NCBI RefSeq assembly: GCF_013371465.1 | Contig: NZ_JABWDU010000010.1 | Location: 186,001-250,000 of the forward strand | DNA length: 64,000 nt | Origin: Ensifer oleiphilus | Lineage (GTDB): Bacteria > Pseudomonadota > Alphaproteobacteria > Rhizobiales > Rhizobiaceae | Reading direction: 5' to 3' | Part shown: positions 3,898 through 21,483 of the stretch, one piece after another | Numbering within the stretch: position 1 is the first letter of the stretch | How the letters are laid out: each line of letters opens with the position of its first letter | Made by a program: the position numbers and the translations under genes | The notes under the pieces: generated by a model | What the model saw: the letters and a program-made list of their open reading frames with translations, nothing else | The model's database searches: none | Told to the model about the DNA's origin: nothing

Positions 3898-5100
3898 CTA
3901 GAGGTCGATGTGCATCTGTTCGATTGCCTGATCTACGTCGGCGATGATGTCGTCAACATGTTCGATGCCGACAGAGAAACGCACTAGTCCATCGACCACG
4001 CCCATCGCCTCGCGCTCCTGGCTGGGGATATCCAGAAAGGCCATGGTCGCCGGCATCTGCGTCGTTGTGCGCAGTCCGCCGAGGCTTGCCGCAAACGAGC
4101 CAAGCTTCAGCCGCTTCAGAAGGCGCACGCCAGAAGCCTCGTCCTCGACGCAGAATGACAGCATGGCGCCTCCGCCGCGCAACTGCTCGCTGGCCGAGGC
4201 ATGATTGGGATGAGAAGGCAGCCCCGGATAGAAGACGCGCTTGACCTTCGGATGAGCTTGGAGATGTTTGGCAAGCGCCAGCGCATTGGCGCACTGCTTT
4301 TCCAGCCGCAGCGCCAGCGTCTGCGCGCCGCGCAGCAACAGCCAGGCATTGAACGGCGACAGCGGCGCGCCGAGCTTGTTGAGTGTGTTCCAACGCACGT
4401 CTTCCAGCCAATCGGCCGGCAGGATGTCGGACTTCAGCGTGATGACCCCGCCAACCGCATCATTGTGGCCGCCGATGAACTTGGTGGCGCTTTCGACCAC
4501 GACGTCGACGCCGAACTCGTGCGGACGGCACACGGCCGGAGAGGCGAACGTGTTGTCGCAGATCACCACGATGCCACGCGAGTGGGCGAGTTCCACCAGC
4601 GCTTTCAGCGGCGGAACCTTCATGGTCGGGTTGGCGATCGCCTCGACATAGAGAACCTTGGTCTCATCGGTGAACGCGTTTTCGACCGCCCGGACATCGG
4701 TGCAGTCGACTAGGCTGACCTTCAGCCCGAAATCGCCGGCGCGGTGATCGAAGAACTCGTGCGTGCTCGAATAGGTCGTGAGATCGGCGACGATATGGTC
4801 GCCGGCTTTGAGGATGCCGAACAACGCATGCGAGATCGCCGCCATTCCCGATGCCGTCGCCAGGCAGGCCGTACCGCCAGTCAACTGGGCGATGTGCTCC
4901 TCGAACTTGTATTCCGTCGGGTTACCGCAGCGCGAATAGATATTCACTTCCTTGCGCGCGCCGGCGACGATCTGGTCGTAGATGTCGCCGCCATACTGGA
5001 AGTTCGCCGACATGTAGATCGGGTAGCTGATCGATTGGGAATGCTCTTCCGGCGTATAGAAGACTGCCCGGCTGGCAAAATCGAGCTCTTTAGGCGACAT
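3898..5100 (-). CDS. PLP-dependent Cys/Met metabolism enzyme (cystathionine gamma-lyase / methionine gamma-lyase family)
   Basis: Fold-type I PLP enzyme of the trans-sulfuration family, 400 residues. The start ATG at 5100 follows AGGAG with a 7-nt gap; an open frame upstream has no coding support. Visible motifs: YSRCGNPTEYKFEEHIAQL near residues 47-65, ATASGMAAIS in the cofactor region, DNTFASP, and the PLP-lysine motif SATKFIGGHNDAVGG. Members cleave or form C-S bonds at the gamma or beta carbon of amino acids. It is embedded between a sugar ABC permease and a PfkB kinase, an unusual place for methionine metabolism. It may process a sulfur- or amine-linked sugar conjugate, but that is inference. 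A second family member (MetC) lies near 19 kb. Confidence 0.88.
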   Translation of the reverse strand: MSPKELDFASRAVFYTPEEHSQSISYPIYMSANFQYGGDIYDQIVAGARKEVNIYSRCGNPTEYKFEEHIAQLTGGTACLATASGMAAISHALFGILKAGDHIVADLTTYSSTHEFFDHRAGDFGLKVSLVDCTDVRAVENAFTDETKVLYVEAIANPTMKVPPLKALVELAHSRGIVVICDNTFASPAVCRPHEFGVDVVVESATKFIGGHNDAVGGVITLKSDILPADWLEDVRWNTLNKLGAPLSPFNAWLLLRGAQTLALRLEKQCANALALAKHLQAHPKVKRVFYPGLPSHPNHASASEQLRGGGAMLSFCVEDEASGVRLLKRLKLGSFAASLGGLRTTTQMPATMAFLDIPSQEREAMGVVDGLVRFSVGIEHVDDIIADVDQAIEQMHIDL

Positions 5101-5147
5101 GAAAATTCTCCTGCATTGGACGCGGGCTTGAGCCCGGTCATTAACGG

Positions 5148-5984
5148 CTATTCCTTGACGGCACCGCCGAGCAAAGCGGCGGTGATCTGGCGTTCGAAAA
5201 AGATGAAGAGGACAAGCGGTGCGATGGCGGCGATCAGGATGGCCGCCAGCATCACCGGGTAGTTGGTGATGTGCTCGCCGACGAAATCCGTAAGCCCCAC
5301 GGGGAGCGTCTTGCGCGCCGGATTGTTGATGAAGACGACGGGAAACAAGAAATCGTTCCAGACCCAGATCATGTTGACGATGGCCGCGGTGAACATCGCC
5401 GGGCGCGCGATCGGCAGCGCTACCTTGGCGAAGATTGACCATTCGGAGGCACCGTCCATGCGCGCCGCGTCGAAGAGTTCGCGGGGCAGCGTGTTGAAGA
5501 AGGCCTGCATGATGAAGATGGTGACCGGCACGTTGAAGGCGGCGGTCGGCAGCACGACGCCCATATGGGTGTCGAGCAGCCCGGCGCCGCGGAGCATCAC
5601 CACCAATGGTACAAGCGCGACATAGGCGGGGATTGCCATGGCCGCCGTCAGGCTGAGTTCGACCGCCGGCATCCAGCGGGGCCGATAGACCGAAAGGGCA
5701 TAACCCGCCAGGGTCGCGACGGCCACAGTGAGAACAGTCGCCCCCGCCATGATCAGCAGCGAATTGACCGCGTAGCCGCCAAGCGCACCGCCGCTCCAGG
5801 CGCCGACATAGGCATCAAGCGAGAAACTGGTGGGGAACGACCAGACCGAGCGCATGAACTCCTTGTTGGTCTTGAAGGTGCTGTAGATCATCCAGATAAA
5901 CGGGAAGATGACCAACAGCACGTGCAGGGTCAGGAGAAAGAGCACCACCGTGTTGGTGGCTGTCCAGCGGCGAACGGCTGCCAT
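5148..5984 (-). CDS. Sugar ABC transporter permease, MalG family
   Basis: Inner-membrane permease of 278 residues with about six hydrophobic segments, the usual size for the MalG/CUT1 group. The EAA-loop, which docks to the ATPase, reads ELFDAARMDGASEWSIFAKV around residue 180. It starts 3 nt after the MalF-like gene stops, so the two are translated together. It precedes the PLP enzyme by 47 nt. The operon has no ATPase gene, so this permease pair must use an ATPase encoded elsewhere; the UgpC-type protein at 50.3 kb is one candidate. Confidence 0.92.
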   Translation of the reverse strand: MAAVRRWTATNTVVLFLLTLHVLLVIFPFIWMIYSTFKTNKEFMRSVWSFPTSFSLDAYVGAWSGGALGGYAVNSLLIMAGATVLTVAVATLAGYALSVYRPRWMPAVELSLTAAMAIPAYVALVPLVVMLRGAGLLDTHMGVVLPTAAFNVPVTIFIMQAFFNTLPRELFDAARMDGASEWSIFAKVALPIARPAMFTAAIVNMIWVWNDFLFPVVFINNPARKTLPVGLTDFVGEHITNYPVMLAAILIAAIAPLVLFIFFERQITAALLGGAVKE

Positions 5985-11495: not shown

Positions 11496-12302
11496 TCACC
11501 CGATTGCCGGGTAACCTTGGCGCGCAGCATCGCGATCGAAGTCCGCCAGCACCTCGTAGTCGGCATCGCCGAGCAAGCTGATGCCCTGCAGCGAGAGCGT
11601 GTCGCAGACTTCGGCCAGCTCCGGATCGGCTATCGTTTCCGACAGGGCCCGGCGCAGGATCACCAGGTTCTTTGCCGGCGTCGACATGGCGGTGATGAAA
11701 GGCAGGCCCGGCCCTTTGGCCGTTTCAGCCAGCACGCGTAAGCCAGCGACGCGATCGGGGTCGAAGCGCAGGGTGTTGCCGAAAGTCACGCAGTCGATCG
11801 CCGCCACATTGGCCGCCCCACTCGACACGGCATCCATGCTTGCCAGGTGGCCGCCGGTCTCCAGCACGCTTGAGAAGAACCGGCCATCGACGGCATGAGG
11901 CGCCACAAAGGCGCGAAACAGGTTGTATCCGGAATTGCTGCCGACCTCGTTGATCGCTGCGCGCCCACCGCGCAGATCTTCGATCGACGTCGCGGACGAC
12001 TGAGCATTGATCACGATGAAACTGCACTTGAGTGGACCGTCACAGCCAGGAAGCCGATAGACGGGCGATGCGACCAGCTGCACCTTGCCTCGCAGATGCT
12101 GGACATAGGGATATCCGCAGGTCTGGCTGAACAGCAAGTCCGGACGTATCCACGCCTCGTTGTAACGGATGTCTTCGTCAAGCACTTCCGGCGCCTCCAG
12201 CCCGTAGGCCCGGATGCGCTCGCCGAGTGCGCGCCAGAACAGCCGCGTCGCCTCCGCGACCGGCGGCGGGCTGGCATACATTGCGAGGCTGGCGAGAGAC
12301 AT
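11496..12302 (-). CDS. PhnD-like phosphate/phosphite/phosphonate-type binding protein without signal peptide
   Basis: Two-domain binding-protein fold, 268 residues. It starts directly with the first strand (SLASLAMYASPPPVAEATR). Family motifs are LLFSQTCGYPYV near residue 57, LRGGRAAINEVGSNSGYNLFR near 110-130, and AAIDCVTFGN near 165. The ATG at 12302 has CCGGAG 7 nt before it and the open frame extends only seven codons further, so a signal peptide is truly missing and the protein should stay in the cytosol. No transporter genes adjoin it. Standalone cytosolic members of this family are usually of unknown role; ligand sensing is a possibility. Confidence 0.8.
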   Translation of the reverse strand: MSLASLAMYASPPPVAEATRLFWRALGERIRAYGLEAPEVLDEDIRYNEAWIRPDLLFSQTCGYPYVQHLRGKVQLVASPVYRLPGCDGPLKCSFIVINAQSSATSIEDLRGGRAAINEVGSNSGYNLFRAFVAPHAVDGRFFSSVLETGGHLASMDAVSSGAANVAAIDCVTFGNTLRFDPDRVAGLRVLAETAKGPGLPFITAMSTPAKNLVILRRALSETIADPELAEVCDTLSLQGISLLGDADYEVLADFDRDAARQGYPAIG

Positions 12303-12332
12303 GGCAGAACTCCGGAAAAGCACGTCAAAAAC

Positions 12333-12612: not shown

Positions 12613-13614
12613 TTAGGAAACGGCCTGCACGGACTTGATCTTCTCGATGCCTCCAACGATTGGGGCAAACTCGTCCCAAACGCCGTGCGCACCCTTCTGC
12701 CACTCGTCCAGTGCTTCCGGCTTCAGGACTTTTCCGCCGTTCTGAATGGCAAGCTCGATCGACTTTGCTTCGTCTTCGACGATCAACTGGTTGAAGTAAG
12801 CCGCCCCCTCCTTCGAAGCCTGTTCAAAAACGGACTTCTGTTCATCGTTGAGGCGACTCCAGAAATCGGAGGAATAGTAGACGACGCCCGATGCCCAGAT
12901 GTGACCGGTTTCGGTCAGGTAAGGCACCACTTCGTAGAGCTTGAAGCCGGCATAGGCCGACTTGGTGAGGTCCATGGCATCGGCGACGCCGGTTGCAAGT
13001 GCGTTGTAGGTCTCGGTGATCGGAATGCCGATCGGCGTCGTGCCGAAGGCGCTCCAGAGCTTGGTGTGAAGCGGACTTTGAATGACCCGAATGCGCTTAC
13101 CTTGGAGCTGTTCGGGCTTCATCACCGGCTCTTTGGTCAGCAGATGACGGGCACCATAGTTGATGAAGTCGGCGACGACGAAATTCTGCGCCAGCAGTTT
13201 CTGCTTGAGGTCGACGCCGATCTCGCCATCAACGCTCTTGCGGACATGGTCGGCATCGCGAAACAGAAACGGCAGGTCGAGCAATTGCAGCTCCGGTGCC
13301 CAACCGGACAGCGAAGACACCGTCGAAAGGCTGGCCTGGACCGAGCCAAGGCGGACACCTTCGGCGACTTCCTTCTCACCGCCGAGCGCGCCGCTCTTGA
13401 CAATGTTGAAGCGGAACTGTCCGGGCAGCCTAGCTTCGACCAGTTCGCTGATCTTCAGCCAGATCTTCGTCTCCGGCTTGTCGTCGCCGAAGAGCGAGGC
13501 GATCGTGATCGCCGTGGTCCGGGCCTGGGCGGGGCGCAGCACGGCGGGCGACGCAAGCGCGGCACCGGCAAGGGCGGTCGTCTTTAGGAAGGCACGTCTG
13601 TTGAAAGCGTTCAT
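12613..13614 (-). CDS. TRAP transporter substrate-binding protein (DctP family), Tat signal
   Basis: Periplasmic DctP-type binding protein, 333 residues. The N-terminus NRRAFLKTTALAGAALASPA carries a twin-arginine export motif. Family features include KRIRVIQSPLHTKLWSAFGTTP near residue 155 and FLTKSAYAGFKLYEVVPYLT-like sequence near 200. The arginine in KRIRVIQ is the carboxylate-binding residue of the family, so the ligand is probably an organic acid or sulfonate. ATG 13614 has AGGA 9 nt upstream. It starts 17 nt after the fused permease stops and is the last gene of the operon that begins with the SsuA-like gene. Confidence 0.92.
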   Translation of the reverse strand: MNAFNRRAFLKTTALAGAALASPAVLRPAQARTTAITIASLFGDDKPETKIWLKISELVEARLPGQFRFNIVKSGALGGEKEVAEGVRLGSVQASLSTVSSLSGWAPELQLLDLPFLFRDADHVRKSVDGEIGVDLKQKLLAQNFVVADFINYGARHLLTKEPVMKPEQLQGKRIRVIQSPLHTKLWSAFGTTPIGIPITETYNALATGVADAMDLTKSAYAGFKLYEVVPYLTETGHIWASGVVYYSSDFWSRLNDEQKSVFEQASKEGAAYFNQLIVEDEAKSIELAIQNGGKVLKPEALDEWQKGAHGVWDEFAPIVGGIEKIKSVQAVS

Positions 13615-13631
13615 GACGAAGATCCTGTTGG

Positions 13632-15461
13632 TTAGAAAATAATTGCCCAGGCGCAAAGGATCGCGAGGGAGACAAGAAGTGCGAGGAGATAGGGAACCAC
13701 CGCCTTGAAGAGTGCGGGGGCCGGTATTGCAGTGACGCCACTGACGACGAAGATCAGCATGCCAAGCGGCGGCGTCAGCCCATGGATCATCAAGTTGACG
13801 ACGATGATGACGCCAAAGTGGATCGGATCGATGCCGGCGGCGACGGCTGCGGGTAAGAGGATAGGGCCGAAAAGCAGGATCGCCGCACCGATATCGAGCA
13901 CCAGACCAACGACCAGAAGAATGATGTTGGAAAGCAGAAGTACTGCAAGCGCGCTACCCCCGAGCAGCATCGTCAGGTTGGACACCAGGCCGGCGACGTC
14001 ATCGACGGCAAGCAGGAAGGCAAAGGGGCCGGCTGTTCCGATCAAGAGCCCGATCGCGGCCGCTTCGGTCGCTGCCTGGCGGAACGCCGCATAGAACGAA
14101 CGGATTCCGAACCGCGCGGCAAGTCCGAGAAACAGCGTGTAGAGCGCAGCCAATGCCGCAGCTTCCGTCGTGGTGACGATGCCAAAGCGAATGCCGAGAA
14201 CGACGATGATGCCGAGGCCGAAGGCGGGAATGGCTTGTCTCGCCGATTGCCAGCGTTGCGCGCTGGTCGCACGGGCTTGCGGCACTTGTTCGCGCACGGT
14301 CAGATGGATCGCAACCGCAAGGCAGATCGCCATCAGACCGCCGGCGAAGAAGCCACCGACCAGCAGGGAGCCGACCGAGAGATTGGTCGCGGTGGCGAGG
14401 ATCAGGAACGCGATCGATGGCGGGATGACATTGTCGAGCACCGACGTGGACGCGATGATGGCTGCGGCCTGTGCCGGCGGATAGCCATGCTTGACGAGTT
14501 CCGGCTGGAACGTCGAGGCACCGAAGGCGGCGTTGGCAACGGAAGAGCCCGAAGCGCCAGAGAAAAGCACGCTTGTCAGAAGTGTGGTCTGGGCGAGGCC
14601 CGCGCGCCGATGACCGACGATAGAAGCCGCAAAGCGCACGAGCTGGTTGGCGACGCCCGATGCGGTCAGCAAGCCACCGGCCAGCAGGAAGAAGGGTATT
14701 GCGAGAAGAAGGAACTTGGAGATCCCGGTTACCGTCGAGGAGACGATCGCTGGCTCCGGAAGACTGCTGCCAAAGGCGATGGCAACGTAGGCTGCGGCAA
14801 GAAAGGCGTGCGGCAGCGGCGCGGCCAGCACCAGCCCCAGGGCGGCCACGAGACCGAGAACGATGCTTGGGGGCCAGTCGACCTCGACGGCAACATGCGG
14901 AATTCCGGCATAGATCGCAGCGCCGATCACAACGGAAAGCAGGCCTTGCAGGGTTCTGCCTTCGCCGACGCGCTGCAGGATGAGCACAAGGAGGATCAGC
15001 AAACCGCCACCGCCAAGGAAGCCGAACCGGTACCATTCCGGTACCCCGAGCGTTGGCGAGATGCCGCCGAGCATGCTCATGATCTCACGGCCGCCGAACG
15101 CCAGCACCAACGCGGTGACGACCGTGAAGGCATCGGCCCCCACTTGCGTTGCCGGATAGAGCCGCGACGGCAGCATCTTGGCAAAGACATCAAGGCGCAT
15201 GGCCAGCGCGCTGTTGAGGCTCAACGGTGCGCCGATTGCAATCAGCGCCACGTGCAGCCAAATCCCCAGGTCCTCTGCGCCGACAAGGCCGGTGTTGAAG
15301 AAGTAGCGCATGCAGACGCTCGAAAGAACGACGGCAAGAAGGACGGCGAGCACCGATGCTGCCGCGATGCCCAGGCTCGCTTCTATCCCCTTGAGTATGC
15401 GTTGCACGAACAGGCGCCCGCTGGAGGCCGCTTCGGTCGGGTGGATTTCGGTGATGGCCAC
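13632..15461 (-). CDS. TRAP transporter fused small-large permease (DctQM)
   Basis: Inner-membrane protein of 609 residues. The first 165 or so residues form a DctQ-type unit of four helices (AEDLGIWLHVALIAIGAPLS is its conserved loop). The remainder is a DctM-type unit with LFSGASGSSVANAAFGAST and VLDNVIPPSIAFLILA near residues 310-360, and a C-terminal LTPPLGMLIFVVSG. Together with DctP it makes a Na+- or proton-driven importer. The start is GTG at 15461 with AAGG 9 nt before it. It lies 25 nt after the SsuD-like gene, so uptake and monooxygenation are probably linked. Confidence 0.93.
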   Translation of the reverse strand: MAITEIHPTEAASSGRLFVQRILKGIEASLGIAAASVLAVLLAVVLSSVCMRYFFNTGLVGAEDLGIWLHVALIAIGAPLSLNSALAMRLDVFAKMLPSRLYPATQVGADAFTVVTALVLAFGGREIMSMLGGISPTLGVPEWYRFGFLGGGGLLILLVLILQRVGEGRTLQGLLSVVIGAAIYAGIPHVAVEVDWPPSIVLGLVAALGLVLAAPLPHAFLAAAYVAIAFGSSLPEPAIVSSTVTGISKFLLLAIPFFLLAGGLLTASGVANQLVRFAASIVGHRRAGLAQTTLLTSVLFSGASGSSVANAAFGASTFQPELVKHGYPPAQAAAIIASTSVLDNVIPPSIAFLILATATNLSVGSLLVGGFFAGGLMAICLAVAIHLTVREQVPQARATSAQRWQSARQAIPAFGLGIIVVLGIRFGIVTTTEAAALAALYTLFLGLAARFGIRSFYAAFRQAATEAAAIGLLIGTAGPFAFLLAVDDVAGLVSNLTMLLGGSALAVLLLSNIILLVVGLVLDIGAAILLFGPILLPAAVAAGIDPIHFGVIIVVNLMIHGLTPPLGMLIFVVSGVTAIPAPALFKAVVPYLLALLVSLAILCAWAIIF

Positions 15462-15486
15462 ACAAACATACCTTATGACGAGAGGC

Positions 15487-16617
15487 TCACGTGCTCTTCA
15501 CGGTGGACAGATCGCGGTCGAACAGGGTGGACCAGGTGAAGTTGCGCGCCGGTGCCACATCCCGCTGAACATCAAGGCGCGGCAGAACCTTTTCCCCGAA
15601 GCGGTATGCCTCTTCCAGCAGTGGCATGCCAGATAGGATGAACGTCTCTACGCCGGCCTGCTGATAGGCTTCGAGGGTGCGAAGGACAGTATCTGGAGAG
15701 CCGACGATCGCCGTGCCCGGACCTGGTCTTACCAGCCCGATGCCCGCCCAGAGATTGGGAGCGACTTCAAGATCGCGCAGATTGTCCGGCTTCAGCCCGC
15801 CGTGCATGGCCGTCATGCGCTGTTGACCGACGGAATCACTTTTCGCGACGAAGCGTTGATTGGCGGCGATCGCGGCGTCGTCCATGCGCGAATAGAGATC
15901 GGCTGCCGCCTCCCAGGCTTTTTCATCGGTGTCGCGCACGATGACATACAGCCGGATACCGTATTGGAGTTCGCGGCCGTATGTGGCGGCCCGGATTTTC
16001 ACCGCCTCGATCTTGTGCCTGATCTGCTCGGGCGTCTCGCCCCAGGACAGATAAGTATCGACGTGCTTGGCCGCGACATCGATCGCCTTGTCCGAGGAGC
16101 CGCCGAACCAAAGGGGCGGCGGCGCGATCGTCTCACTGACGGGCAATGCGAGCTTGGCGCCCTCGGTCGAGAAATACTTGCCCTTGTGGGTGACGCTTTC
16201 GCCGGCGAAAAGCCGATGCCAGAGCTGCAGATACTCATCCGCCATGTCGTAGCGCTCGTCATGCGGCAGCATCATTCCGTAGGCGCCGAGCATCTTGGCG
16301 TCGCCGGAGACGATATTGATCAGCAGGCGGTCGCGCGAAAACTCCTGGAAGGTGGCCGCCATCTTGGCGAGCAATGTCGGGGCGACCAGCCCCGGATGGA
16401 TCGCGACCAGGAAGCGAAGGCGCTCGGTATGGGAGAGCAGCGCACTCGCCAGCACCCAGACATCGTGGGCACCCGTTGCAAACAAGGTGCCGGTATAGCC
16501 GAGATGATCGTAGGCTTGTGCCAGTTGCTTGTAATAGCCGTAATCGACCTTGCGCGAACCCTCCGGCTGCCAGGGATAAGCGCCGTCGGGCGCGCACATA
16601 TACCAGAATACGTTCAC
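15487..16617 (-). CDS. SsuD-like FMNH2-dependent (luciferase-family) monooxygenase
   Basis: Cytosolic flavin monooxygenase of the bacterial luciferase fold, 376 residues, matching alkanesulfonate monooxygenase in length. Motifs: SRDRLLINIVSGDAKMLGAYG near residue 95, YDMADEYLQLWHRLFAG near 125, PPPLWFGGSSDKAIDVAAKHVDTYLSWGET near 165-195 (read here in parts), and VGSPDTVLRTLEAYQQAGVETFILSG near 305. Enzymes of this group cleave C-S bonds of sulfonates with O2 and reduced FMN supplied by a separate reductase, which is not in the window. Operon position between an SsuA-like protein and a TRAP permease is atypical, since SsuD usually accompanies an ABC importer. Confidence 0.88.
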   Translation of the reverse strand: MNVFWYMCAPDGAYPWQPEGSRKVDYGYYKQLAQAYDHLGYTGTLFATGAHDVWVLASALLSHTERLRFLVAIHPGLVAPTLLAKMAATFQEFSRDRLLINIVSGDAKMLGAYGMMLPHDERYDMADEYLQLWHRLFAGESVTHKGKYFSTEGAKLALPVSETIAPPPLWFGGSSDKAIDVAAKHVDTYLSWGETPEQIRHKIEAVKIRAATYGRELQYGIRLYVIVRDTDEKAWEAAADLYSRMDDAAIAANQRFVAKSDSVGQQRMTAMHGGLKPDNLRDLEVAPNLWAGIGLVRPGPGTAIVGSPDTVLRTLEAYQQAGVETFILSGMPLLEEAYRFGEKVLPRLDVQRDVAPARNFTWSTLFDRDLSTVKST

Positions 16618-16627
16618 GTTCAGATCC

Positions 16628-17473
16628 TCAATAGGCTGTCTTCAGCGGTTGGGCGACCGCGATGGAATGATGAAAGTGGCCGTGGCGATACAGCGTGTCG
16701 GCTTCCTCCTGCTGCTCGGCAAGAACGGCGCTATCGATCGGACCGACGGTAAAATCGCGCGAACGCACGACCCGCTCCCACACGTCGACGTGCGTCCCGA
16801 TGCGGTCATCGGCGGCGAGCAGGTGTGCAGCGGCCTTCGGATCGGCGGCAATCTCGCGGCCGATCCGGTTGAGCTCGGCTGCGATTGCCGCAAGCTCGCC
16901 GGATGAAAGCCCCGTCCGCCGCAGCGTCCAGAACAGGGAACGGTTCGGGATTGCCGCCCCGCAGCGCAGAAGCAGACGCAGATCGCTTCGCTCGATCGCT
17001 TTTTCGAGGCGCGGCGACATCGCCACCCAGGCATCGACACGGCCTTCCAGCAACTCCGTCAACGAATCGCGGGTGCCGCTCTCGACGCGCTCGACATCGG
17101 ACAGCGCAAAGCCTTGCCCTTCCAGGCTGCGAGCCAGCAGATAGGTGTGAAAGGAGCCGTCGATCAACGAGACCCTGCGCCCGACCAGATCGGCGACCGA
17201 TGCGATGTCGCTCGCCGCGCGCACGAAGATCGCACCATTTGCGGGACGCGGGGCCGAGGCAGCGATGTATTCCACCCCAAGACCACGGGCGTCCGCCTCC
17301 AGCGGCGGCGTGGAGCCGGTGCCGCCGAAATCGATAGCGCCCTGATCGATCAGCGCGGCCGTATCCCGCCCCTCGCCGTAGGAAATAAATTCCGGATCGA
17401 GTTCAGCAAACGCGCCGGGCCATAGACCTGCCAAACGCAGATGCAGGTTGTTGGGGTGAACGCCAATCCTCAT
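16628..17473 (-). CDS. SsuA-like (aliphatic sulfonate/nitrate/taurine type) binding protein without signal peptide
   Basis: Binding-protein fold of 281 residues. It begins at the first strand (MRIGVHPNNLHLRLAG) and continues with ALIDQGAIDFGGTGSTPPLEA near residues 42-60 and LVGRRVSLIDGSFHTYLLARS near 98-118, the order seen in SsuA proteins. The frame extends only two codons upstream, so no export signal is possible and the protein should be cytosolic. First gene of the operon with the SsuD-like enzyme (10 nt downstream). It might deliver or buffer substrate, act as a sensor, or be an enzyme related to THI5/NMT1-type proteins of the same fold. Function not established. Confidence 0.78.
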   Translation of the reverse strand: MRIGVHPNNLHLRLAGLWPGAFAELDPEFISYGEGRDTAALIDQGAIDFGGTGSTPPLEADARGLGVEYIAASAPRPANGAIFVRAASDIASVADLVGRRVSLIDGSFHTYLLARSLEGQGFALSDVERVESGTRDSLTELLEGRVDAWVAMSPRLEKAIERSDLRLLLRCGAAIPNRSLFWTLRRTGLSSGELAAIAAELNRIGREIAADPKAAAHLLAADDRIGTHVDVWERVVRSRDFTVGPIDSAVLAEQQEEADTLYRHGHFHHSIAVAQPLKTAY

Positions 17474-17515
17474 GACCATTCCAATCGAAGTCTTGCAGTG
17501 TCAGTGCGATCAATC

Positions 17516-17526
17516 TACTTTTTTAT
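17516..17526. promoter_or_regulatory. Candidate ArsR operator, copy 1
   Basis: TACTTTTTTAT, followed by AAAATGAATGCGAGA, 43 nt from the SsuA-like start. An exact 11-nt copy in the same orientation lies at 17666-17676, 18 nt before the ArsR start, also followed by a GCGAGA-containing stretch. The pair flanks the divergent promoter region; binding by the ArsR protein is inference. Confidence 0.4.
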
Positions 17527-17665
17527 AAAATGAATGCGAGAAAGGTCGTGCCCTTGCCGATTGCTTGTCGAGATAATTAATCTACAAATTCTACCGACAT
17601 TAAAATGTTCTGCCGCAAAGGCCTTTCGTATCGGTCTGCGCATTGAAATCCACCGAATCTCACTT

Positions 17666-17676
17666 TACTTTTTTAT
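17666..17676. promoter_or_regulatory. Candidate ArsR operator, copy 2
   Basis: Second TACTTTTTTAT, followed by GAAGCGAGAG, immediately before the ArsR ribosome-binding site. Position suggests autoregulation. Confidence 0.4.
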
Positions 17677-17694
17677 GAAGCGAGAGAGGCATTC

Positions 17695-18060
17695 ATGACG
17701 AAACCGGCACCGACAAAGGTCTGTCGCAGCGTTGGCGAGGCCAGCGAATTGTTGAAATTGATCGCGAACTCCAATCGCCTGGCAATCGTGTGCTATCTCA
17801 TGGAAACGGAGGCATCGGTCTCAGTGCTGGAAACCGAGCTCGGCATACGCCAGCCGACACTGTCGCAACAACTCGCTGAGTTGCGCGAGGCCGGCATTAT
17901 CGAGGGGCGGCGTGACGGCAAGGCTATTGTTTACAGGGTCGTCGATCCACGCGTGGAAACGGTCGTTCATGCCTTGCGCAAGATGTTTGACGGGCTCGAC
18001 GATATCACCGGCCGCTTCGGCATGGCGAAATTGCCGGTCGACGAACTGATGTTCGATTGA
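17695..18060 (+). CDS. ArsR-family winged-helix regulator
   Basis: Small dimeric repressor-type protein of 121 residues. The wHTH reads LLKLIANSNRLAIVCYLME (18-36) then ETELGIRQPTLSQQLAELRE (recognition helix, about 47-66) and a wing with GRRDGKAIVYRV. It has two cysteines, Cys10 and Cys33. Cys33 sits in the alpha2 position used by persulfide-sensing ArsR proteins of the BigR/SqrR type, but the second, C-terminal cysteine of that group is absent, so the sensing chemistry may differ. GAGAGG lies 5 nt before ATG 17695. Divergent from the SsuA-like/SsuD-like/TRAP operon and 7 nt before the GST gene, so control by a sulfur signal is plausible. Confidence 0.9.
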   Translation: MTKPAPTKVCRSVGEASELLKLIANSNRLAIVCYLMETEASVSVLETELGIRQPTLSQQLAELREAGIIEGRRDGKAIVYRVVDPRVETVVHALRKMFDGLDDITGRFGMAKLPVDELMFD

Positions 18061-18067
18061 GCGCCAG

Positions 18068-18697
18068 ATGATTGATTTTTACACCTGGATCACGCCAAAC
18101 GGGCTGAAGATCGCGATCGCCCTTGAGGAGTTCGGTCTGGACTATCGAGCGCATGCCATCGACATTAGCAAGGGTGCGCAATTCTCACCGGATTTTCTGG
18201 CGATCAATCCAGGCGGCAAGATACCGGCGATCACCGACCACGCCACCGGCATCACTCTGTCGGAGTCCGGCGCCATTCTCATTTATCTCGCAGAAAAGAC
18301 CGGCCGCTTCCTTCCAGCGAGCGGCGCTGCAAGGCACCATACGATCGAGTGGTCAATGTGGCAGGCGGCAAGCTTTGGTCCAACGCTCGGCCACGCCCAC
18401 AATTTCCTGACCTACAATGTCGGCATGGCACCCTTTGCCGAAGAGACCTTCCGCAGGGACACGCAGCGGCTATACGAAACGCTGAATGCCCGTCTTGAAG
18501 GCCGCGACTACCTGGTCGACGACTACTCGATTGCCGACATGGCGACCTGGCCCTGGGTCTCGCGCTATGCACGGCACAAGATCGACCTTGCCGATTATCC
18601 GAATGTCCGGTCTTGGTATCTGCGGCTTGCGCTTCGCCCGGCCGTCAAGCGCGGCTATGAAGTGCCCCATGTCACCGGCGCCATCCCCCTGCCCTGA
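18068..18697 (+). CDS. Glutathione S-transferase, Nu-class/YfcG-like
   Basis: Cytosolic GST-fold protein of 209 residues. The N-terminal thioredoxin domain begins MIDFYTWITPNGLKIAIALEE, close to the YfcG/YghU pattern in which Thr and Asn in TPNG contact glutathione disulfide instead of a catalytic Tyr or Ser. LSESGAILIYLAEKTGRFLP near residues 60-80 is the glutathione-binding SNAIL-type segment. The helical domain ends with YSIADMATWPWVSRY. Members show disulfide-bond reductase activity. It follows the ArsR gene by 7 nt and is probably in one transcript with it. Confidence 0.9.
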   Translation: MIDFYTWITPNGLKIAIALEEFGLDYRAHAIDISKGAQFSPDFLAINPGGKIPAITDHATGITLSESGAILIYLAEKTGRFLPASGAARHHTIEWSMWQAASFGPTLGHAHNFLTYNVGMAPFAEETFRRDTQRLYETLNARLEGRDYLVDDYSIADMATWPWVSRYARHKIDLADYPNVRSWYLRLALRPAVKRGYEVPHVTGAIPLP

Positions 18698-18748: not shown

Positions 18749-19939
18749 TCAGATTGCAGTGGCTGCCGCGAAAGCGCGCTCAAGATCGGCCTTTAAGTCC
18801 CCGACGTCTTCGAGGCCGATGTGAAGCCGCAGCACCGGCCCCTCGGTCGGCGCCGTCAGGATGCGCCGATCCGCGAGATCGACATGAAGCGCGAGGCTCG
18901 CAAACCCGCCCCAGGAATACCCGAGCCCGAAGAGCGACAGACCGTCCAGGAATGCCTGGGCCCTTGCTTTGTACTCATCACGTCGTGCGACGTTCAACAC
19001 GAAGGAAAAGACGCCGCTCGCACCTTTGAAATCCCGCTTCCAGACGGCGTGGCCAGGAAAACTCGCAAGTGCTGGATAGAGCACACGCGCGACATCGCCG
19101 CGCGTTTCGAGCCATTCGGCGATCTCAAGCGCGCTCGCCTGATGGCGTTCGAGACGCACGCCCATCGTGCGCAGTCCACGCAGCGCCTGATAGGCGTCAT
19201 CCGGTGCGCCACATATTCCGAGCGCGCCATTCATATGCCTGAGGCGCGGCCAATATTGCGCATTGGCAGAGACGGTGCCCATCAAGATGTCCGAATTGCC
19301 CGTCGGGTACTTGGTTGCCGCCTGGATCGAGACGTCCACGCCAAAATCGAGCGGCCTGAAGAACAGCGGCGTCGCCCAGGCGTTGTCCATCGTCACGACA
19401 GCCGAAATGCGGTGCGCGGCGGCGGTGATCGCGGGCACGTCCTGCATCTCGAACGTGTTGGAGCCTGGTGCCTCGAGGTGAACGAGCTTGGTGTTCGGCT
19501 TGAACAGGGTCTCGATCGCAGCACCGATACCGGGATCGTAGTATTCGACCTCGATGCCGAAGCGGGCCAGCATGGTGTCGCAGAAATGACGGACGTTGCC
19601 GTAGACGGAATCGACGATCAGCGCATGGTCCCCCGGAGACAGCAGCGCCAGGAACGCGAGCGTGACCGCTGCAAGCCCTGACGGTACCAGGAGGGTACCG
19701 GCCGCCCCTTCAAGCTCGTTAAGGGCCTCGCAAAGAGCATCCGTCGTCGGCGTGCCGCGTGTACCGTAGGTGTATTTCTGGTCGTGGCTCTCCATCGCCT
19801 TGGCGTTCGGGAAGAGCACCGTTGAGGCGCGCACCGTTGGCGGGTTGATGAAGCCGTGATAGTCGAACGGATCGTATCCCGCCCGCGAAAGCTTCGTGTT
19901 GGTTCCGAGTTTCTTCGAGATGTCATCGTTGTCGTTCAT
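18749..19939 (-). CDS. metC: Cystathionine beta-lyase
   Basis: Fold-type I PLP enzyme, 396 residues, that cleaves cystathionine to homocysteine, pyruvate and ammonia. Features: YGTRGTPTTDALCEALNELE near residues 58-77, VPSGLAAVTLAFLALL, DNAWATPLFFRPLDFGVD and the PLP-lysine motif QAATKYPTGNSDILMG near residue 205. The overall pattern (RAGYDPFDYHGFINPPTVRAST at the start) is that of MetC rather than gamma-lyases. ATG 19939 was chosen, with AGGA just upstream; a TTG four codons earlier overlaps the SD. It ends against the convergent GST gene. It may also cleave cystine or djenkolate, fitting the neighbouring amino-acid binding protein. Confidence 0.9.
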   Translation of the reverse strand: MNDNDDISKKLGTNTKLSRAGYDPFDYHGFINPPTVRASTVLFPNAKAMESHDQKYTYGTRGTPTTDALCEALNELEGAAGTLLVPSGLAAVTLAFLALLSPGDHALIVDSVYGNVRHFCDTMLARFGIEVEYYDPGIGAAIETLFKPNTKLVHLEAPGSNTFEMQDVPAITAAAHRISAVVTMDNAWATPLFFRPLDFGVDVSIQAATKYPTGNSDILMGTVSANAQYWPRLRHMNGALGICGAPDDAYQALRGLRTMGVRLERHQASALEIAEWLETRGDVARVLYPALASFPGHAVWKRDFKGASGVFSFVLNVARRDEYKARAQAFLDGLSLFGLGYSWGGFASLALHVDLADRRILTAPTEGPVLRLHIGLEDVGDLKADLERAFAAATAI

Positions 19940-19995
19940 GAAATCCTGCAATTCCCAGCCGAGGCAGCCCCGGCTTTCCTAGATGGTGCACATGC

Positions 19996-20023
19996 GAAAA
20001 GCCGGCGCTGTAGCGCGCCGGCT
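19996..20023 (-). terminator. Rho-independent terminator after the amino-acid binding-protein gene
   Basis: Nine-base stem AGCCGGCGC / GCGCCGGCT (20000-20023) with a 6-nt loop. On the minus strand it is followed by TTTCGC. It separates the binding-protein gene from metC. Confidence 0.7.
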
Positions 20024-20045
20024 CGATGTTGCACTGCTCAGCGTT

Positions 20046-20993
20046 TTACGAGCCGCTCTTCGGCAGGCCGGGCGGATTGGTCTGGGCTTTCTCGATCGCT
20101 TCGGGACCGAGTTTCCAGGTCTCCAGAATTTTGCGATAATCGCCGCTTGCTATCAGATCATTGATGACGCCGGTCAACGGTTCGGCAAGGCCGCTGCCCT
20201 TACGGGTCGTAACAGCAATTTCGGCCGAGATCGGCCAACCGCCACTGACTGTGCCGACGAGCTTGGTCTTGCCGTTGATTGCTGCGGAATAGGCCTGCGT
20301 CGCGTTGACACTGAACACCACGTCCGCCCGCCCGGACTGAACCGCCAGATCCTTGACGGCGTCATCGTCATAGTACTGCACCTCGATTGCCGACAGGCCG
20401 GCGGCGAGGTTTTGCCTGTCCCATTCGAGCAGGATCTTTTCCTGATTGGTTCCGGCATCGGTAATCACCTTCAGACCGGCGATGTCCTTCGGCGCCTTGA
20501 TCGCCTGGATGCTGCTGTCGGCCTTCACATAGAAACCGAGTTCATCCTTACGATACGTGGAAAAGTCGAACTTCTCCTTGCGCTCTTCCGTTACCGTGAC
20601 GTTGGAGATCACGGCGTCGAACTTGCCGGACACCAACCCAAGCGGCCAATCCGCCCAGGCGACGGAAACCAGTTGCAGATCGCGCCCGAGGCTGTCGGCA
20701 AGCGCTTGCGCCAGATCGACGTCATAACCGATGACCGTCTTGCTGTCGGACGCGTAGTCGTGCAGCGGAAGATGGCCACTGGTGCTGATGCCGATTGTCA
20801 GCGCGCCGTCCTGGACAAACTTAAAGTCCGCAGGGACCTCTGCGATGCGCTTGTCGTTCTTTTCCACCCGCAACCGGTTTGTCTGCTCGGGGCTGAGATC
20901 GAAAGCGTCGGCCGCAAACGTCGCCGATGCACCAAACACCATGGCGGCCATCGCGCCGGCTGCCAGAAGTTTTCTATTTTGGAGAATGCCCAT
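20046..20993 (-). CDS. Polar amino-acid ABC transporter substrate-binding protein
   Basis: Periplasmic family 3 binding protein, 315 residues, with a signal peptide (LLAAGAMAAMVFGASATFA) cleaved near residue 28. The core shows VIGYDVDLAQALADSLGRDL near residues 90-110, WPLGLVSGKFDAVISNVTVTEERKEKFDFS (read in parts) near 120-150, and a final SGDYRKILETW. These are the canonical positions of the cystine/glutamine-type family. No permease or ATPase genes adjoin. Placement beside metC suggests a sulfur amino acid such as cystine, but that is inference. ATG 20993 starts the signal peptide; the upstream ten codons are not typical. Confidence 0.85.
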   Translation of the reverse strand: MGILQNRKLLAAGAMAAMVFGASATFAADAFDLSPEQTNRLRVEKNDKRIAEVPADFKFVQDGALTIGISTSGHLPLHDYASDSKTVIGYDVDLAQALADSLGRDLQLVSVAWADWPLGLVSGKFDAVISNVTVTEERKEKFDFSTYRKDELGFYVKADSSIQAIKAPKDIAGLKVITDAGTNQEKILLEWDRQNLAAGLSAIEVQYYDDDAVKDLAVQSGRADVVFSVNATQAYSAAINGKTKLVGTVSGGWPISAEIAVTTRKGSGLAEPLTGVINDLIASGDYRKILETWKLGPEAIEKAQTNPPGLPKSGS

Positions 20994-21483
20994 TCTGCCC
21001 GTCCCTTCATCTCTCGGTTTCAAGCCAGGTGCTAGACCTGATCTGATACGAACTATTGTCTATTAAAATAGTAGACAAAAGAAATGATTGATCGTCATTC
21101 TGTCGGAGTGGGAAAAATCCGTTCGGGATTCGCCGAAGAACTTTCGAAACCAATATGTCAAACAGCTATCATACAAGATTGTATTTATTGCCTTCTTTGT
21201 GCTTTAGATTGAACACACGCGGCTTGCGATCGATCAAAACGGCCAGCCGTCAGCTGCTCGATATCCATGAGGCCTTCGTTGGCGAAACCGACATCGCCGA
21301 TCAAACGCGGTTCTTCATCAACGATGGATCCCAGACGCAGATCAGCGGACACGACAAGTCCCGGGCGGACCATCTCGACATCTCGTCGCTATGCGTCGGC
21401 GCAGAGGAAGTGACCTTCAGGACGCGGCTTTGTTCCACTTTCGAAGTGGCCTATAGCGGTCATTGTGCACAAGGACGAAGACC
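20994..21483. other. Intergenic stretch between two divergent genes
   Basis: Carries the 21056-21078 palindrome and, presumably, promoters for both flanking genes. Open frames exist on both strands at 21155-21532 and 21185-21373, but I cannot match them to any family and treat them as chance. Confidence 0.5.
21056..21078. promoter_or_regulatory. Nested palindrome upstream of the amino-acid binding-protein gene
   Basis: Outer arms TTGTCTA and TAGACAA enclose an inner palindrome CTATT-AA-AATAG, 63 nt before the start codon on the minus strand. The symmetry suggests an operator overlapping the promoter. The binding protein is unknown. Confidence 0.45.

Follow-up and report, generated by a model that had tools for sequence, protein, structure and literature searches.

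A cytosolic SsuA-like protein paired with an SsuD-related monooxygenase in a TRAP-linked operon of Ensifer oleiphilus and its relatives

What would a relative of the sulfonate receptor SsuA do without a signal peptide, in one operon with an SsuD-like monooxygenase and a tripartite ATP-independent periplasmic (TRAP) importer? The question is raised by a locus of Ensifer oleiphilus (contig NZ_JABWDU010000010.1), which we analyzed in a window of 64,000 nucleotides (nt), positions 186,001 to 250,000 of the contig. Four minus-strand genes there, separated by 10, 25, and 17 nt, encode in order the SsuA-like protein, the SsuD-like monooxygenase, a fused DctQM, and DctP (Table 1). A preliminary description of this DNA had given the same layout, and open reading frame (ORF) calls and family matches agreed with it exactly. 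The last gap measures 17 nt because the start of DctP was taken at the ATG preceding NRRAFLK, a twin-arginine motif read in its translation. DctP matched PF03480 with 211 bits, the DctQ and DctM domains both exceeded their cut-offs within one chain, and a complete set of TRAP components was therefore present above Pfam cut-offs in a single operon. The host, an Ensifer/Sinorhizobium-like rhizobium with a 6.76-Mb genome, also has a canonical SsuD just outside the window (C1:252280; TIGR03565, 622 bits), adjoined by a Flavin_Reduct gene (C1:253622). Since that SsuD is kept separately, the operon constitutes a second, different system. We consider it fairly probable that it is a cassette for sulfur acquisition whose SsuA-like protein acts in the cytosol, either carrying substrate to the monooxygenase or taking part in catalysis as its partner.

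At the level of gene sequence, the genes of the signal-less SsuA-like protein and of the SsuD-like monooxygenase, whose lid loop reads RPGP, are always neighbors and constitute an inseparable pair. Scanning GTDB species yielded 34 loci, none of them from the window's own genome. In all of them an ArsR gene lay divergent from and adjacent to the SsuA-like gene, which was followed by the SsuD-like gene, and TRAP genes came next in 31, a recurrence that argues against a chance arrangement. Within the genus, the SsuA-like protein was present in 4 of 16 genomes, and a longer block was syntenic in three congeners (SBP3, cystathionine beta-lyase, glutathione S-transferase [GST], ArsR, SsuA-like, SsuD-like, DctQM, and DctP). 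Among 394 sampled genomes of the family, 19 contained the SsuA-like protein (E value of 1e-50 or better), and a separate search with the alignment of the SsuD-like protein recovered the identical 19 of 394 (1e-130 or better); the two draws of genomes are taken as identical, as their listed parts are. Neither protein was detected in the other 375 genomes at these thresholds, with misses possible because at most 5 or 6 candidates were scored per genome. The two genes adjoined each other in 19/19 of these genomes; within flanks of 1.5 kb, 14 had TRAP genes, 17 had ArsR, and 13 had GST, with one locus, L099, stopping at a contig edge.

We then pooled several collections into a set of 58 loci, consisting of the window, 40 loci (the 34 scan loci plus individually read ones), and 17 loci from the family sample; one genome may count twice (candidates L032/G004, L033/G003, and L034/G006). 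The gap between the paired genes was -4 to +41 nt in every locus, the Streptomyces gap being counted from the codon at which the alignment starts (by annotation, these two genes overlap by 4 nt), and the RPGP loop was found in all 58 monooxygenases. Among 72,556 plasmid records, SsuD-like proteins of at least 71% identity occurred in six, and exactly these six had an SsuA-like protein of at least 47%. The next plasmid SsuD was canonical (51% identity), and a seventh, distant pair occurred in Streptomyces sp. SAT1 (36-37% and 48%). Pairwise distances of the two proteins were correlated across 41 loci (r = 0.90), much of which shared descent alone would produce. The pair is rare outside the family: the cassette was found in 1 of 385 genomes of a class sample (the host itself), and a sample of 398 genomes from the phylum contained the pair in 3, the host and two others of its family.

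The importer attached to the pair was less constant. In six loci (L061, L067, and L112-L115), SsuC-like and SsuB-like genes of an ATP-binding cassette (ABC) importer, with a secreted SsuA-family receptor, replaced the TRAP genes; the signal sequences of these receptors were judged by eye, and the two receptors tested, those of L112 and L115, passed the SsuA_fam cut-off (189.5 and 182.5 versus 163.5 bits). Of the five family genomes without TRAP genes, the four that were examined further had an ABC importer, G619 being the fifth. The Gluconobacter and Acetobacter loci carried a TonB-dependent receptor and a major facilitator superfamily (MFS) carrier, the Streptomyces locus an ABC importer with two further receptors, and the Terrarubrum locus TRAP genes plus an ABC importer upstream, and only a permease remained directly behind the copy of the pair on pTiQ15/94. 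Judged from these gene contents, the importer is exchangeable (TRAP, ABC, or MFS with a TonB receptor), and we dropped the TRAP system as the defining part of the cassette. The preliminary description had put the TRAP importer first in a four-gene layout of which it knew no described example. The layout stands, the emphasis does not: TRAP is an exchangeable module and TRAP uptake of a sulfonate, isethionate, is known, so the novelty lies in the pair of a cytosolic SsuA-like and an SsuD-like protein.

In a receptor tree of 41 rows, the 17 signal-less proteins, including that of Streptomyces, formed one clade (99/98). A separate one (99/93) held the receptors with signal sequences from the six ABC loci together with one Streptomyces receptor; where the signal-less clade branches relative to canonical SsuA proteins is not settled by that tree. 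Because the ABC loci keep the signal-less protein beside a secreted receptor, in separate clades, it is not the import receptor. An ordinary Ssu system that lost its ABC importer, had it replaced, and kept the SsuA-like protein as a decaying remnant would explain the SsuA ancestry, the lost signal peptide, and the presence of TRAP instead of SsuBC. We regard this as very improbable: the signal-less clade is single, extends from Alphaproteobacteria to Streptomyces, and coexists with secreted SsuA in ABC loci; 36 residues are invariant in 41 SsuA-like sequences; and the host retains its canonical SsuD. Importer and regulator are replaced or not found in some loci while the monooxygenase is always present, and for this reason we think it likely that the SsuA-like protein works with the monooxygenase rather than with an importer or a regulator. 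A gene order not kept in relatives would have counted against the preliminary description, and the order is kept; its idea that the SsuA-like protein is an intracellular partner receives strong support from this obligate pairing.

The cytosolic location of the SsuA-like protein, proposed there too, is indicated by its start codons. ATG stood at the second ATG of the window gene (17473) in 29/34 scan loci, and in the window in-frame start codons reached at most 2 residues upstream of it. No in-frame start lay 15 or more residues upstream in 49/58 loci, and the other 9 had possible N-terminal extensions that, judged by eye, were unlike signal peptides. A mis-called start masking a signal peptide was dropped from consideration after this survey. 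The protein matched NMT1 (PF09084) above cut-off with 63.8 bits and fell below the cut-off of SsuA_fam TIGR01728 (91.4 versus 163.5 bits). Its AlphaFold model (pLDDT, 89.2) has an SsuA fold, the top five Foldseek matches being SsuA chains (3ksx, 3ksj, 2x26, and 3e4r; TM-scores of 0.80 to 0.84), followed by matches that include TauA and Thi5. A profile search of PDB sequences likewise found SsuA 2x26 at 1e-39.

A cytosolic protein of this fold beside a flavin monooxygenase has a counterpart in the dibenzothiophene 4S pathway. There, the flavin monooxygenase DszA, which belongs to the same superfamily, is accompanied by DszB, a cytosolic desulfinase with a substrate-binding protein (SBP) fold. 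By analogy, the monooxygenase could yield a sulfinate that the SsuA-like protein hydrolyzes to sulfite. DszA and DszB are a known pair of this shape, and hhalign detected a remote similarity to DszB (probability, 88). That match spans only residues 77-225 and leaves out the N-terminal part with Cys27 of DszB; this catalytic cysteine has no counterpart here, the sole cysteine of the window protein being C173. Searching PDB sequences with the profile gave no DszB up to an E value of 10, the 50 best fold-search matches listed did not include it either, and the monooxygenase retains a sulfonate-binding triad (see below), which favors sulfonate cleavage, a reaction that itself gives sulfite. We consider a DszB-like desulfinase improbable. 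The DszA/DszB pair also differs in that the monooxygenase here falls in the SsuD branch, in a tree that held no DszA row.

The SsuD-like protein matched Bac_luciferase (PF00296) above cut-off. In a tree of 32 rows, in which Novosph_H54, RhizN741_H56, and L071 had long branches, the RPGP clade was single (100/99) and joined six canonical SsuD proteins at 98/95, with SfnG and four other relatives outside this grouping. A strict sister position is likely rather than certain because the six canonical SsuD proteins alone reached only 83/83. The preliminary description had named a grouping of the monooxygenase with non-sulfur luciferase-family enzymes as a refutation. This did not come about, and a non-sulfur luciferase-like enzyme is made unlikely by the position in the SsuD branch. 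In the available text of PMC8234197, W195, R225, and R296 of MsuD bind methanesulfonate, and their mutants had no measurable activity. This Trp/Arg/Arg triad was retained in all 41 SsuD-like sequences, and the corresponding positions read N/N/N in two SfnG rows. The lid loop was RPGP instead of RGGA in the same 41/41 aligned sequences; of the 8 rows labelled canonical, 7 had RGGA and Kovacikia had RSGA.

Several observations count against sulfonate chemistry or against a working partnership of the two proteins. The monooxygenase scored 421 bits with TIGR03565 and thus fell below the equivalog cut-off of 518.2. In Escherichia coli numbering, His11 and Cys54 were lost in 41/41 sequences, His228 was replaced by Tyr in 40/41, and Tyr331 by Met in 40/41 and by Asn in 1/41. 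The last residue of RGGA, which offers its backbone NH to the sulfonate in MsuD according to the part of PMC8234197 that was available, is a proline in 41/41, and with its lid loop altered in this way the enzyme is unlikely to have simply the substrate range of SsuD. The triad alone is no proof of sulfonate chemistry, since W/R/R is also retained in a distant relative from Novosphingobium whose gene neighbors serve glycerol catabolism. The pocket of the SsuA-like protein has changed as well. In SsuA of X. citri, as given in the available text of PMC3839906, Q36, G68, G86, and S141 hold the sulfonate and W185 stacks on the ligand; of the four contacts, only the two glycines were kept (G37 and G55; 41/41), Q36 corresponding to H8 in 41/41 and S141 to F110 in 40/41 by alignment mapping, and the stacking W185 was replaced by M154 in 40/41. 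In view of these differences, the substrate could be an anion other than a sulfonate. No reductase gene was found in the window's operon and no MsuE match above cut-off in the host genome, no role for GST in breaking a C-S bond is apparent, and co-occurrence of genes indicates a shared pathway, not physical contact. With H8, G37, G55, S109, and R180 invariant in 41 sequences, the SsuA-like pocket is changed yet strictly kept under what looks like selection, which points to a specific ligand and not to decay.

Alternatively, the cassette might handle a sulfur-free anion, with both proteins only derived from sulfonate proteins. No aligned SsuD-like member retains the original lid loop or the full set of pocket residues, many TRAP receptors carry carboxylates, and the neighboring genes vary among lineages, all of which would suit such an anion. 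We judge it unlikely, with a modest chance of being right, given the retained triad, the placement in the SsuD branch, the SsuABC-like importers with SsuA-family receptors, the MsuE gene of one genus, and the BigR-like regulator (see below). The active site looks fit for an oxyanion, probably a sulfonate, though not for the substrate range of SsuD, and there is a good chance that the substrate is an organosulfonate or a close relative. The interpretation in the preliminary description is upheld in part, the organosulfur use that it proposed being supported indirectly by the triad, by the SsuABC-like importers that replace TRAP, and by MsuE.

The operon that diverges from the four genes offers a further view of the cassette. 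Its ArsR-family regulator had BigR (NF040642) as its best NCBIfam model by E value and remained below that model's cut-off (91.1 versus 155 bits); BigR is a sulfite-sensing regulator. The GST gene starts 7 nt after ArsR and adjoined it in 29/34 scan loci. Between the two operons lie two copies of a box, whose pattern had no further match in the 64 kb and none in 100 shuffles; because the pattern was built from both boxes themselves, only their conservation in relatives is independent evidence. Both boxes, 149 to 151 bp apart, were found in 27/35 loci (the window plus the 34), all of the type with TRAP and GST; three further loci of that type had one copy, and five loci without GST had none. 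GST is followed in one genus by an FMN reductase of the MsuE type. This reductase was seen at full length in L116 (G518; 226.6 bits versus a cut-off of 212.5), and its first part was seen at the locus edge in six genomes including G518, a seventh of the genus stopping at a contig edge. This suggests that flavin supply is under the same control in the MsuE-bearing genus.

The constant ArsR neighbor in the scan loci could also mean that the SsuA-like protein senses a ligand in the cytosol and reports the imported compound to a regulator. Its closest precedent is NasS, which the available text of PMC3795266 describes as a signal-less nitrate-binding protein that restrains NasT. In the stretches examined around the pairs of Terrarubrum, Streptomyces, and G699, there was no ArsR-like match, and the monooxygenase was a neighbor in 58/58 loci. 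ArsR proteins normally bind their own effector, and no NasT-like gene was noticed beside the pair, where no search aimed at ANTAR proteins was made. A NasS-like role thus seems to us unlikely, and a partnership with the monooxygenase remains the reading that we prefer.

Table 1. Features of the four-gene operon and of the divergent operon in the window
Feature	Position	Strand	Remarks
SsuA-like protein without signal peptide	16628..17479	-	283 amino acids (aa); operon gene 1; 281 aa from second ATG (17473)
SsuD-like FMNH2-dependent monooxygenase, RPGP clade	15487..16617	-	376 aa; GTG start
Fused TRAP small and large membrane subunits, DctQM	13632..15461	-	609 aa; GTG start; PF04290 and PF06808
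TRAP solute receptor DctP, twin-arginine leader	12613..13614	-	ATG start; ORF to 13656 from TTG
Conserved 19-bp AT-rich box preceding the SsuA-like gene; probably an operator for ArsR	17511..17529	-	
Same box, second copy, preceding the ArsR gene	17661..17679	-	
ArsR-family regulator, BigR-like	17695..18060	+	PF01022
Glutathione S-transferase	18068..18697	+	GST_N/GST_C; nearest NCBIfam NF010579, below cut-off

Neighboring genes differed by lineage and gave at most hints of the substrate. In Thioclava, a gamma-glutamyltransferase-family gene (L066, 14950-16542) shares one base with the end of DctP, which might hint that the substrate is a gamma-glutamyl compound or resembles glutathione. A 1-Cys peroxiredoxin gene, similar to the LsfA-type proteins of sulfonate regulons, follows DctP in six Rhizobium loci (L039, L041, L042, L043, L045, and L046) and counts in favor of sulfonate chemistry. 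In Terrarubrum, a NIPSNAP gene sits between the pair and the TRAP genes, and the DctP match there (L070, 14280-15172) consists of two overlapping pieces with no gene listed, so that this copy may be broken or mis-sequenced. The Ti plasmid copy (L068; pTiQ15/94, 123618-144415) comprises the pair, an ArsR gene, and an SsuC-like permease without further importer subunits directly behind it, with opine-type genes in the vicinity, namely, an octopine/nopaline-dehydrogenase-family gene, and ABC genes nearby.

In the window itself, a second signal-less gene of a binding-protein fold (11496-12323, minus strand; Phosphonate-bd PF12974) lies 289 nt downstream of DctP. Copies with 92-93% identity occupied the same place in G003 and G004, and none was found near the operon in G006; given this and the distance, a fifth, PhnD-like operon member is unsupported. 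On the other side, convergent with GST, an SBP_bac_3 receptor gene is followed by a cystathionine beta-lyase gene (18749-21023, minus strand; NF004626, 700.8 bits, above cut-off). This block was syntenic in the three congeners, and no ABC membrane or ATPase gene was noticed beside SBP_bac_3. Residues 132-507 of a further minus-strand ORF (3898-5442) correspond to a second pyridoxal phosphate enzyme of Cys/Met metabolism, the real start of which is probably internal because the first ~100 residues overlap a permease ORF (5148-5984) in another frame.

How might the cassette work? DctP would catch an organosulfur anion, in all likelihood a sulfonate, and DctQM would import it. A separate reductase would feed FMNH2 to the SsuD-like enzyme, which would oxidize the carbon next to the sulfur, and sulfite would be released for assimilation. 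The ArsR/BigR-like repressor would sense a sulfur species and open both operons. The SsuA-like protein may bind the imported substrate or product in its re-tooled SsuA pocket and pass it on, or it may perform an adjoining chemical step; we hold carrier and catalyst to be roughly equally probable. A bolder version, which we offer tentatively and with somewhat less than even confidence, is that a receptor moved to the cytosol and is now an obligate working subunit or catalytic partner, the two proteins being an undescribed C-S-cleaving pair that is plugged into TRAP, ABC, or MFS importers and directed at anionic organosulfur compounds beyond those of SsuD and MsuD.

Known systems share parts of this arrangement. 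SsuEADCB, of E. coli and others, likewise has an SsuD-related FMNH2-dependent monooxygenase, an SsuA-related protein, and an importer resembling the SsuBC-like one of some loci here; the cassette differs in an SsuA relative that has no signal peptide and is tied to the RPGP clade, in its TRAP, ABC, or MFS importer, and, in most loci, in the divergent ArsR-GST operon. MsuD/MsuE has the Trp/Arg/Arg sulfonate site and a reductase of the type found in the divergent operon of one genus, but its loop is RGGA where RPGP stands here, and we know of no SBP partner of MsuD. NasS, with its partner NasT, is also a cytosolic member of an importer-receptor family that lacks a signal sequence; its partner is an ANTAR protein, whereas the constant partner here is a monooxygenase. 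TRAP uptake of a sulfonate is known from the IseG-linked receptor, which binds isethionate according to the accessible part of PMC6453916, and is shared by the isethionate importers IseP (8t9t) and IseKLM. As far as the available descriptions go, these systems are tied to the anaerobic glycyl-radical lyase IseG or to other pathways, and neither an SsuD-like nor a cytosolic SsuA protein was encountered among them. In the available text of PMC5395668, PMC6453916, PMC10516948, and PMC7822408, SsuD-type and TRAP genes are not described as one locus, and among the papers listed in a literature search that was thin on subscription journals, none described an SsuD-type gene beside TRAP transporter genes or an SsuA that stays in the cytosol.

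Much of the sulfur in soil is present as sulfonates and related compounds, which bacteria typically open with enzymes of the SsuD type. Public labels such as "ABC transporter substrate-binding protein" and "ssuA" hide what is probably a non-transport role of the SsuA-like protein, and the authors of PMC3795266, in the part available, suspect similar mislabelling for NasS. A clade beside SsuD that was never met here without a cytosolic SsuA relative is a pointer to a new way of handling the substrate or to a new enzyme with an SBP fold. In the first case, a receptor in solution would deliver to an enzyme and no longer to a transporter.

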